Source of the DNA: Roseimaritima sediminicola
GTDB taxonomy: Bacteria > Planctomycetota > Planctomycetia > Pirellulales > Pirellulaceae
Direction: 5' to 3'
NCBI RefSeq assembly: GCF_009618275.1
Contig: NZ_WIAD01000003.1
Location: 124,001-188,000 of the forward strand
DNA length: 64,000 nucleotides
Of this stretch, positions 34,332-37,262 are shown in pieces. The notes under the pieces were generated by a model. That model did not search any database. It had not been told where the DNA came from and saw only the letters and a list, made by a program, of their open reading frames with translations. The stretch's first letter is position 1, and each line of letters opens with the position of its first letter. The translations under genes and the position numbers were made by a program.

Positions 34332-34934
34332 TTACAGTTTCTGGCGTCCGGTCAGGGCATCTGCCAGGATTTCTTTGTTGGCGTATTCCAACACGCTGCC
34401 GGCGGTGATGCCACGCGCCAACCGCGTCACGTTCACCGGAAATTCAGCCAGCAGGTTCGAGATGAACAACGACGTCCCATCGCCCTCGAGCGTTGGATTG
34501 GTCGCCATGATCACCTCCTCAAAATTCCCCGTCCGGACCCGATCGACCAGCGGATCGATGGTCAATTGGTCCGGACCAATTCCGTCGAGCGGAGCGATCC
34601 GCCCCAGCAGTACATGATACAGGCCGCGGTACACGCCGGCCTGTTCCAAAGACATTAAATCACGCGGCTGTTCGACGATGCACAGCCGCGTCGTGTCCCG
34701 CTGGGGGTCGGAGCAGATATTGCATCGCTCGCCCTCGGACAGGTTGTAACAAATACTGCAGTAATGAACGTTCTCGCGAACGCGCGTGATCGCGTCGGCC
34801 AACTGCAGTGCCTCGGCCTTGGGGACCCGCAACAGATGGTACGCCAGTCGTTCGGCGCTCTTGCGACCGATGCCGGGCAGACGGCCCAGTTGCTGGACCA
34901 AATCGTCGACCGATCCGGATTCTGATGACAACAC
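34332..34934 (-). CDS. recR: Recombination mediator RecR
   Basis: 200 residues, the standard length. An N-terminal helix-hairpin-helix (LGRLPGIGRKSAERLAYHLL) precedes the zinc finger CSICYNLSEGERCNIC and the Toprim domain (LCIVEQPRDLMSLEQAG). The C-terminal Walker-B-like region is ATNPTLEGDGT. RecR forms a clamp with RecO for RecFOR-dependent loading of RecA at gaps. Translation starts at GTG 34932-34934. It lies 6 bp after ybaB and is part of the conserved dnaX-ybaB-recR operon. Confidence 0.98.
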   Translation of the reverse strand: MLSSESGSVDDLVQQLGRLPGIGRKSAERLAYHLLRVPKAEALQLADAITRVRENVHYCSICYNLSEGERCNICSDPQRDTTRLCIVEQPRDLMSLEQAGVYRGLYHVLLGRIAPLDGIGPDQLTIDPLVDRVRTGNFEEVIMATNPTLEGDGTSLFISNLLAEFPVNVTRLARGITAGSVLEYANKEILADALTGRQKL

Positions 34935-34940
34935 CGCTGG

Positions 34941-35288
34941 CTAACCACCCGTCAGGGAAGCCATCGCGCCGTCCATCCCCGGCAGTCCCCCGATGTTCAG
35001 CTCTTCGGTCAATCGCTGCATCGACTCGGCGAACATCTGTTTTGCCTGGGCGTGGCCGCGATTGGTCGCCTCGCAGATCCACTGCTGCAGGACCGAGTCC
35101 TCGTGGTCGGCGGCAGCGAATTCGATCCGCTGCATCTCGCCGAGACCGTTGAAGTGAGCCACGACCGCGCGGTCGCCGGCTTCGACCGTAAACGTCTCTT
35201 GACGGAGCTGGTCATTCATCTCCGCGATCGCTTCGGGCAGTTTTTGTAAACCGCTCATCATCGAAGCAATATTTCCAAATTTGAACAT
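34941..35288 (-). CDS. ybaB: YbaB/EbfC family nucleoid-associated protein
   Basis: 115 residues (family about 100-110). The sequence begins MFKFGNIASMMSGLQKLPEA, with the typical N-terminal helix, central beta sheet (TFTVEAGDRAVVAHFNGLGE) and C-terminal helix (AKQMFAESMQRLTEELNIGG) ending in a Gly/Pro-rich tail. It is a homodimeric DNA-binding protein that often sits between dnaX and recR, as here: 24 bp after dnaX and 6 bp before recR. Its exact role is unclear, with nucleoid and recombination links. Confidence 0.95.
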   Translation of the reverse strand: MFKFGNIASMMSGLQKLPEAIAEMNDQLRQETFTVEAGDRAVVAHFNGLGEMQRIEFAAADHEDSVLQQWICEATNRGHAQAKQMFAESMQRLTEELNIGGLPGMDGAMASLTGG

Positions 35289-35312: not shown

Positions 35313-37262
35313 TCACGATCGGGGTTCGTCGACGCGGACCACTTCCGCGTCGAATATTTCCATGCACTTCTGCACCCAAGGATGGTTTTGCAATTCCCGT
35401 TGCCGCTGCCGACGTTCACTGGTCGTGCTCGGCGGCGGAGCCAATGGTTTGCTGACCGCCTTGGGGTCGAACCCCAATTCTATCAGCACACGGCGTGCCG
35501 CGGTGCCACAAACGGCTTCGTCAATTTTATTTTTCTGTTCAGGTTTTTCGCAGCGGCTCTTGGTAAGCGTTAAATCCTTGGGAAACAGCAGGCGAATCTT
35601 GCCCGCTTCGAGGCATTCCACCCGGCTGACCTGTTGAGCCAAACCGGCGGTCAGCTCGTCCATCTGAGCCAGAGCCTCACGCCACAGCCGCCCGACCCCC
35701 TGTTCGGTCCACTGCACGGGCGTTCCGGGCCGAATCGTCGCGGCCGCGGCCGGGTGACCAGCCGGCGCCGTATTACCCGCCGCCGGCGAAGCATTGCCCG
35801 CCGCCGGCGAAGCATGACCCGCCGCCGGCGAAGCATTGCCCGGGGCGGGCGAAACCGCCGCGGTTGGCACGGCAACTGCCCCGCTGGCGGACGAACGTCC
35901 ACTTTCCGGATTCGCCCCGGCGGCCGGATTTGCCGCAGGCGGCACAGAGCCCGGGGCCGCGGCACCGCTTGCCGGCGTCCTATCGGCCTGCGGGACGCTG
36001 GCCGGGGCCGCGGTGGGCGGCCCCGTCGTCCGCCCCGCCGCGGCATCGGGACCTACGAGGTTGGCTTTAACGTTTTTTTTTTCCGGGTCGCCGCCGGCCG
36101 CTTCCAAAGCCGCCATCGCGTCGGCGATTCGCTGCAGGTCGGGCAACTGGCAGATCTGGATCAAAGTCGTTTCCAGCAGCACGCGGCCGTGCACGCTTTG
36201 CCGGATCCGGACCAGGGCCTGATCCAACAGCGACACCACGGCCAGGACGGTCGACACGCCCCACTTCTGGCCCCGCTCGCGCAGCTCCTCGTGCATCGAT
36301 TCGCTGCAGAACCGCAGCATTGTCGGCGAGCAGCCGACCGTGGCGACCATCAGATCGCGAAAGTGCCCCAGCAGCTGCTCGCCCAGCTGGCCCGCATCGA
36401 CGCCGGCCAGGATGGCCGCATCGGCTTGCTGGAGCGCGGCGGCGGAATCACGAGCGATCAGGGCCGACGTCAATTCGCTCAGACGTTCGTCGTCGGCGGT
36501 GCCAAGCATGTTGTGGACCGCTTCGACCGTCAATCCTTCGCTGCTGAAGCTGAGCACCTGTTCCAGCAGGGACTGGCTGTCGCGCATCGAACCCGCCGCG
36601 CGGCGAGCGATCAAGCGCAGGGCTTCGTCTTCGGCGTGGGCGTTCTCGGCATCGACGATCTCGCGCAGCCGAGCCATGATCTGGTCGGTGTGGACCGGCG
36701 CAAAGTCGAAGCGTTGACAGCGGCTGAGCACGGTGATCGGGATCTTTTCCGGATCGGTCGTGCAGAAGATGAACTTGACGTGCGGCGGCGGCTCTTCCAG
36801 CGTTTTCAGCAGGGCGTTGAAGGCCGCCTGCGTCAGCATGTGGACTTCGTCGATGATGTAGATCTTGTATCGAGCCCGACTGGGGCGCACGCCGACGCCC
36901 GCGCGGAGGCTGCGGATTTCATCGATCCCGCGGTTGCTGGCACCGTCGATTTCCAACACGTCGACGTCTTCCCCCGCATCGATCGACTGGCAGATATCGC
37001 TGTCGTTGTCGGGCGTGGCCGTCGGGCCTTCGGGGGCGTTGAGCGCTTTGGCAAAGATCCGCGCCGTGCTGGTCTTGCCGACTCCGCGAGCCCCGGTGAA
37101 GAGGTACGCGTGGCCGACGCGGTTGGTTTCGATGGCGTTCTTCAGGGCTTGGCCCACGTGGCCCTGGCCGACCAATTCGCCGAAATTCTTGGGGCGATAA
37201 CGCCGGGCGACGACAACGTATTTGTCGGAGGACGTTTCCTGAGGGGCAGGGGATTCGGCCAT
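35313..37262 (-). CDS. dnaX: DNA polymerase III subunit tau (and probably gamma), DnaX
   Basis: 649 residues. It is the AAA+ clamp-loader ATPase: Walker A GARGVGKTST (about 58-67), Walker B YIIDEVHML, sensor TTDPEKIP and the SRC motif LSRCQRFDF. The zinc module normally has four cysteines, but here the stretch reads LNAPEGPTATPDNDSDIC, so only one cysteine remains. After the collar region comes an Ala/Pro/Gly-rich linker with tandem ASPAAGN-like repeats (35750-35845), then a tau C-terminal part. A run of ten A residues in the mRNA falls at codons 394-397, where a one-base slip would give a 398-residue gamma. First gene of the dnaX-ybaB-recR run, just downstream of the SRP RNA. Confidence 0.97.
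   Translation of the reverse strand: MAESPAPQETSSDKYVVVARRYRPKNFGELVGQGHVGQALKNAIETNRVGHAYLFTGARGVGKTSTARIFAKALNAPEGPTATPDNDSDICQSIDAGEDVDVLEIDGASNRGIDEIRSLRAGVGVRPSRARYKIYIIDEVHMLTQAAFNALLKTLEEPPPHVKFIFCTTDPEKIPITVLSRCQRFDFAPVHTDQIMARLREIVDAENAHAEDEALRLIARRAAGSMRDSQSLLEQVLSFSSEGLTVEAVHNMLGTADDERLSELTSALIARDSAAALQQADAAILAGVDAGQLGEQLLGHFRDLMVATVGCSPTMLRFCSESMHEELRERGQKWGVSTVLAVVSLLDQALVRIRQSVHGRVLLETTLIQICQLPDLQRIADAMAALEAAGGDPEKKNVKANLVGPDAAAGRTTGPPTAAPASVPQADRTPASGAAAPGSVPPAANPAAGANPESGRSSASGAVAVPTAAVSPAPGNASPAAGHASPAAGNASPAAGNTAPAGHPAAAATIRPGTPVQWTEQGVGRLWREALAQMDELTAGLAQQVSRVECLEAGKIRLLFPKDLTLTKSRCEKPEQKNKIDEAVCGTAARRVLIELGFDPKAVSKPLAPPPSTTSERRQRQRELQNHPWVQKCMEIFDAEVVRVDEPRS
36073..36082 (-). 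promoter_or_regulatory. dnaX: A10 slippery site in dnaX (predicted gamma/tau switch)
   Basis: The coding strand reads GAA AAA AAA AAC GTT AAA. Adding one A, or a -1 ribosomal slip, gives GAA AAA AAA AAA CGT TAA, a stop two codons later. Losing one A gives ACG TTA AAG CCA ACC TCG TAG, also a quick stop. A hairpin with a 7-bp outer stem (36038-36044 with 36007-36013) and a 6-bp inner stem (36030-36035 with 36015-36020) lies 28 bases downstream. Homopolymers of this length are rare in such GC-rich DNA. Thermus thermophilus dnaX uses an A9 run in a similar place for transcriptional slippage. Confidence 0.7.

Follow-up and report, generated by a model that had tools for sequence, protein, structure and literature searches.

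Gamma, the shorter product of dnaX, is made beside full-length tau in different ways in the closest described systems. In Thermus thermophilus, dnaX undergoes transcriptional slippage at a run of nine A's (PMC1088944, excerpt), and stops are present in both non-zero frames (PMC5009743, excerpt). In Escherichia coli, a -1 ribosomal frameshift takes place at A_AAA_AAG. In the GeneTack study, whose genome set included two planctomycete species, a dnaX cluster with two ORFs was reported in which tau needs the shift, with nine genes carrying 10 A's and slippage proposed as the mechanism (PMC3711429, excerpt). Genes in which slippage yields a shorter product have been described as hard to recognise by comparison (PMC1088944, excerpt).

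Slippage in dnaX is already known from Thermus, and the case here is a probable further example with unusually strong comparative support. A search of titles and abstract openings in the open-licence literature returned no description of slippage in dnaX for planctomycetes or Rhodopirellula.

The dnaX gene and its A10 run

The window (the whole stretch of 64,000 nucleotides analysed here) contains dnaX on the minus strand, followed by two smaller genes. The features are as follows.

36117-36530, minus strand: DnaX domain III (PF12169, residues 245-382), final domain of the predicted gamma
36073-36082, minus strand: A10 run, codons 394-397 (GAA AAA AAA AAC), shortly 3' of domain III
36067-36069, minus strand: TAA in the frame with one A more or after a -1 shift, predicted product of 398 aa ending EKKKR
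36053-36055, minus strand: TAG in the frame with one A fewer, predicted product of 402 aa ending EKKTLKPTS
35990-36038, minus strand: predicted RNA hairpin about 34 nt 3' of the run, judged to lie outside the device
35313-36071, minus strand: region found only in tau, Pro/Ala-rich linker and C-terminal domain
35313-37262, minus strand: full-length (tau) ORF of dnaX, 649 codons plus stop (Pfam PF13177, PF22608 and PF12169; NCBIfam TIGR02397)
34941-35288, minus strand: gene of the ybaB/ebfC family adjoining dnaX (PF02575)
34332-34934, minus strand: recR (PF13662, PF21176, PF02132)

The gene matches TIGR02397 (dnaX_nterm) with 434.5 bits against a cut-off of 250, and its G+C content is 65.5%. The original prediction had placed ten A's in codons 394-397 of 649, with EKKKR and then TAA following one extra A and a short tail and then TAG following the loss of one, and all three statements agree with the sequence. 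The shifted-frame stops lie 3 and 17 nt 3' of the run. In silico, 10 A's give a product of 649 aa, 11 give 398, 9 give 402, 8 give 397 and 12 give 403. The C-terminal part of tau was in some relatives matched again as a separate stretch. Further into the tau linker, at about 35755-35845 of the window, a short tandem repeat of NASPAAG-like units was seen by eye.

The A10 run of this gene is probably a programmed transcriptional slippage site by which gamma is made beside tau. During transcription of the run, the short hybrid of RNA and DNA, made up of A over T throughout, could realign, and part of the dnaX mRNA would then have 9, 11 or another number of A's. Messages with 10 (or 10 ± 3) A's would be translated into the 649-residue tau, and the other messages would lead to either of the two nearby stops and to a gamma of about 397-403 residues, which would comprise domains I-III and lack both the linker and the C-terminal domain of tau. 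Tau and gamma would both be able to enter the clamp loader. From the sequences we infer that RNA polymerase slips here and that gamma accumulates, in some ratio to tau.

The dnaX run is the only run of at least nine A's on either strand of the window. Dinucleotide shuffles of the window contained 0.25 A9 matches on average, and the observed two overlapping matches were reached in 9 of 100, so the mere presence of such a run in 64 kb is unremarkable, and it is the place and the conservation of the run that are striking. The genome (6,245,843 bases) has three A10 places and 15 overlapping A9 matches, the latter corresponding to 12 distinct runs of at least nine A's. By arithmetic from this density, such a run is expected about twice in 10,000 for a given one-strand stretch of 180 bases. 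One of the three A10 places (L083, G000:C147:22532-22541) lies inside no obvious sense reading frame; no blastn match to it was found among the A10 loci of two relatives, and tblastx gave short scattered stretches only.

Conservation of the run in relatives

DnaX was matched in 238 of 241 Pirellulaceae genomes searched, and 110 dnaX loci were read, including that of the window. One locus of this family, L091, agrees base for base over 4902 bases with Aporhodopirellula aestuarii (L001; Pirellulaceae, Pirellulales, Planctomycetia). In the other families of the order, 85 genomes had a match and 60 loci were read. Because loci were mostly picked by rank, the counts that follow under-represent fragmented assemblies and weaker matches. 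A run of A9-A11 was found at the gamma/tau boundary in 106 of the 110 Pirellulaceae loci (83 A10, 22 A9 and 1 A11) and in 50 of the 60 loci of the other families (31 A9 and 19 A10, with 10 loci without it). For both samples pooled this is 156 of 170 loci (53 A9, 102 A10 and 1 A11), counts that are not independent because the loci are related. Conservation of the run in close relatives, which had been put forward as a check, was thereby confirmed.

Four of the 110 Pirellulaceae loci are without the run, one of which (L195) is cut by a contig end. Among all 169 judgeable loci the run is missing in 13, indicating that it is dispensable for the group. A longest run of exactly eight A's was found in none of the 170 loci; in the run-less loci the longest run is 3-6 and in one case 7. 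The dnaX loci of the order in which no run of at least eight A's stands at the boundary are L180, L184, L207, L209, L222, L230, L232, L250, L258, L262, L263, L266 and L268.

The linker around the run is poorly conserved. Over ten codons on each side, the mean pairwise amino-acid identity is 9-18% in 71 genes (Pirellulaceae genes with A10 in phase 1, compared ungapped and anchored on the run), indicating that the run persists as a feature of the DNA rather than through conservation of the protein, and protein-level conservation was rejected as its cause on this ground. The original prediction had also held that such a run was unlikely to persist by chance, and the persistence of the run in nearly all loci read, amid a near-random linker, bears this out. 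It is accordingly hardly credible that the run is a mere Lys-rich stretch of the linker, kept by protein sequence or by chance. Basic linkers are common, and at least two Lys codons lie within the run in all 156 carriers, but from one species to another the flanking residues are close to random. Outside the run, Lys is encoded more often by AAG than by AAA (1532 versus 1261 codons), and yet the A's are unbroken in the carriers. The confinement of the run length to 9-11 and the strong enrichment of stops in both shifted frames (see below) also speak against a mere Lys-rich stretch.

The run occurs in all three codon phases (95, 57 and 8 rows). On a DnaX tree of 173 rows, from which L195 was left out and to which L006-L009 were added, the minimum number of changes is 11 for presence of the run, 24 for its length among carriers and 12 for its codon phase. 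The run starts at a median of 24 codons 3' of the end of domain III (range 8-70, 156 genes), this end being estimated in the relatives from the end of the tblastn match.

Two Pirellulaceae loci, L149 (G160) and L157 (G153), have A9, whereas the 11 other members of the genus examined have A10 and an in-frame tau. In these two genes the zero frame ends at codon 396 or 403, with the C-terminal part of tau in the -1 frame (blastp E values of 1e-22 and 5e-29 to residues 501-649). They may represent a genuine reverse layout or a homopolymer sequencing error. The missing A in these two genes is also what could be expected of a DNA-level contingency run, in which replication slippage would alter the number of A's and toggle tau between cells. 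However, the run length is nearly constant between species, and loss of tau is probably lethal, given the need for clamp loaders, making a contingency run very improbable.

A search at the level of the phylum covered 49 genomes and 30 loci, with a run of at least nine A's in 5 loci and no run of eight or more in the stretch examined in the other 25. The carriers are the window gene itself (L280), the two loci of the same class outside the order (L270 and L271), L278 (33% G+C, A11) and L289. In a separate sample of 80 loci, some of which are cut by contig ends or frame-broken (e.g., L037 and L074), 60 were without a run of at least eight A's, 5 had A8, 9 had A9 and 6 had A10; the planctomycete loci L002 and L003 were among those without the run. 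The run is therefore dense in the order sampled and scattered elsewhere.

Seven loci from scattered taxa (L011, L022, L029, L030, L044, L052 and L065) have A9 or A10 near the same dnaX boundary and a nearby stop in at least one shifted frame. They belong to Ignavibacteria, Bacteroidetes, Verrucomicrobia, Phycisphaerae and one more planctomycete MAG. In L289 (G331), a planctomycete outside the class, the zero frame stops 11 nt 3' of an A10 run and both other frames are open for more than 300 nt, and a reverse layout is possible there.

Shifted-frame stops and stimulator signals

RNA-polymerase slippage and ribosomal frameshifting differ in what they predict. If the ribosome shifts by -1, one frame should be closed, at least 7-8 A's should be needed and stimulators may be present. 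If RNA polymerase slips, both frames should be closed, the run should need about nine A's in whatever codon phase, and stimulators should be lacking. Stops 3' of the run were therefore compared with codon shuffles of the linker, with 8 Pirellulaceae and 11 other-family rows omitted that have no run or no sequence 3' of it. In Pirellulaceae, 90 of 102 genes have a stop in each of the two shifted frames within 30 nt of the run, versus 5.7% in the shuffles (largest of 200 sets, 12), and the -1 and the +1 frame are each closed within this distance in 96 of the 102. In the other families, both frames stop within 30 nt in 36 of 49 genes, versus 5.2% in the shuffles (largest of 200 sets, 8), with the -1 frame closed in 45 and the +1 frame in 38; of the two stops, that of the -1 frame comes first in 32 of these genes and that of the +1 frame in 17.

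Stimulator signals were absent from the genes examined. Folding of the 60 nt downstream of the run showed no excess stability relative to codon shuffles (mean z of -0.06, n = 151, 10 genes below -1.65), and a conserved downstream hairpin was rejected as part of the device. Shine-Dalgarno (SD)-like tetramers upstream of the run were not enriched (11 of 151 genes versus 9.8% in shuffles), and an SD stimulator was likewise rejected. For the window itself, a hairpin 28 bases downstream had been claimed. A helix is indeed predicted and is kept in the centroid structure, but it starts about 34 nt 3' of the run and its stability is ordinary: 13 of 200 shuffles fold as well over 104 nt and 143 of 200 over 74 nt, and z is +0.4 relative to codon-shuffled linkers.

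The main alternative in which gamma is still made is that the ribosome makes it, by a -1 slip on A_AAA_AAA or A_AAA_AAC or by sliding along the A run with no downstream structure. The -1 frame of the window gene stops two codons past the last all-A codon (CGT TAA), slippery heptamers are present in the run, and every A9 run contains A_AAA_AAA. Sliding on A runs also occurs in vitro, and in a stalled reconstituted system it was seen even on a message with two lysine codons (PMC4363877, excerpt). In the E. coli PURE system, however, sliding needed at least 11 A's (PMC4363877, excerpt), and A_AAA_AAC and A_AAA_AAA are much less prone to shifting than A_AAA_AAG in E. coli (PMC5009743, excerpt). 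A heptamer would require only 7-8 A's, yet the longest run is eight in no locus and seven in one, and in Pirellulaceae the +1 frame is as strictly closed as the -1 frame. With the lack of any SD or hairpin signal across the 151 genes, the ribosomal origin of gamma is considered unlikely.

The stops in both frames, the runs from nine A's upwards in any phase and the lack of hairpin or SD signals favour slippage by RNA polymerase, in line with the mechanism that the original prediction had preferred. Avoidance of A/T runs in bacteria begins at length nine in many genomes, according to the same source in which eight A's seem productive in the IS elements of some bacteria (PMC1088944, excerpt), so a lack of runs of eight, as seen here, does not mark slippage universally. 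Outside Pirellulaceae, the -1 stop is more often the nearer one and the -1 frame is more often closed, and some ribosomal -1 contribution may exist there. What the sequences show directly is the run with its two stops, the conservation of these features and the lack of stimulator signals.

Further genes with A runs and comparison with known systems

The second A10 place of the genome (L081/L299, G000:C66:47724-47733) separates the class-III aminotransferase domain from the thioesterase domain in an open frame of 1072 codons, which encodes a hybrid synthetase with an aminotransferase domain. This gene was matched in 43 of 240 Pirellulaceae genomes, and 32 loci were read (L299-L330). Exactly ten A's were present shortly past the aminotransferase part in 12 of the 32, and 20 had no run of at least seven A's. 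In the A10 carriers, both shifted frames close within 48 nt in 12 of 12 (16% in codon shuffles) and within 33 nt in 11 of 12 (8% in shuffles), with the limits chosen after the values had been seen and with 3 of the 12 loci near-identical. In the relative L311, a condensation and adenylation pair is the module past the run. No description of slippage in polyketide or nonribosomal peptide genes was found in titles and abstract openings of the open-licence literature, and the polyketide and aminotransferase rows in the table excerpt of PMC3711429 refer to translational coupling and phase variation, not to slippage.

In a third gene, an A9 run (L372, G000:C102:31569-31577) stands at the joint of two frames. 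The first half encodes 3-keto-disaccharide hydrolase and ThuA domains and the second half NPCBM and DUF7133, as assigned by Pfam on the relative L334. Matches were obtained in 174 of 240 genomes, and the best 30 loci were read (L358-L387). Among these best 30 of 174, four are split, namely L372 from the source genome, L358/L334, L359/L339 and L378; in all four, the joint has A9 or A10 and the second half is encoded in the -1 frame. The gene is fused in 24 of the best 30 (20 without a run of at least seven A's, one with A7 and three with A9-A11), and in L368 and L369 it ends with neither a run nor a comparable second half. Many of the unread matches have short frames of about 530-600 aa, so first halves that stand alone and lack a run may be common. 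Restoration of the frame by slippage would account for the splits at A9/A10, as it would for the tau of L149 and L157 in the -1 frame.

These two genes seem to use the same device as dnaX. In the source genome, 2 of the 3 A10 places lie in the dnaX, second or third gene, and in the complete relative G165 all 3 of 3 do, one being dnaX and the others the two further genes. In G163, only 2 of 5 distinct A10 runs lie in them. In the draft genome G164 the overlapping A10 matches number 44, many of them coming from runs of far more than ten A's; the other three genomes of its genus have 3-6 A10 matches each. It is conceivable, though somewhat doubtful, that A9-A10 runs are a general device in Pirellulaceae, with slippage at domain borders giving two forms per gene in several genes.

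The role of gamma has long been debated, and its origin by unrelated means argues that gamma matters. The retention of the run through extensive divergence of the linker, together with stops in both frames, argues strongly, on comparative grounds, for selection of gamma, here in a clade with unusual cell biology. It also provides a testable signature for slippage genes with a shorter product, namely 9-11 A's in any phase with closure of both shifted frames. Judging by the second and third genes, these bacteria may also use slippage outside dnaX.

Compared with Thermus, the window gene has in common an A run of at least nine on the sense strand at the gamma/tau boundary (A10 after a domain III ending at residue 382), a tau whose single open frame of 649 codons continues across the run, and stops at 3 and 17 nt past the run that soon close both non-zero frames. 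A run kept by selection in homologues, as in systems of the Thermus type, was also found, with 156 of 170 loci carrying it. The differences are that the run is A10 and not A9 and that it stands 61% of the way through dnaX (codon 394 of 649), unlike in Thermus.

With E. coli dnaX, the window gene shares a gamma ending just past domain III and a -1 frame that stops very soon. However, it lacks A_AAA_AAG and has A_AAA_AAA and A_AAA_AAC only, SD-like tetramers are not enriched in the genes examined here (11 of 151 versus 9.8% in shuffles), there is no close stem-loop (the window helix being about 34 nt away and the mean z of the 151 genes -0.06), and the +1 frame is closed too. With the two-ORF dnaX of the GeneTack study, the window gene shares an A10 run, and L149 and L157 share the layout if their A9 is real. 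In the window, in contrast to that layout, tau is encoded in the zero frame and gamma would be the product of slippage.
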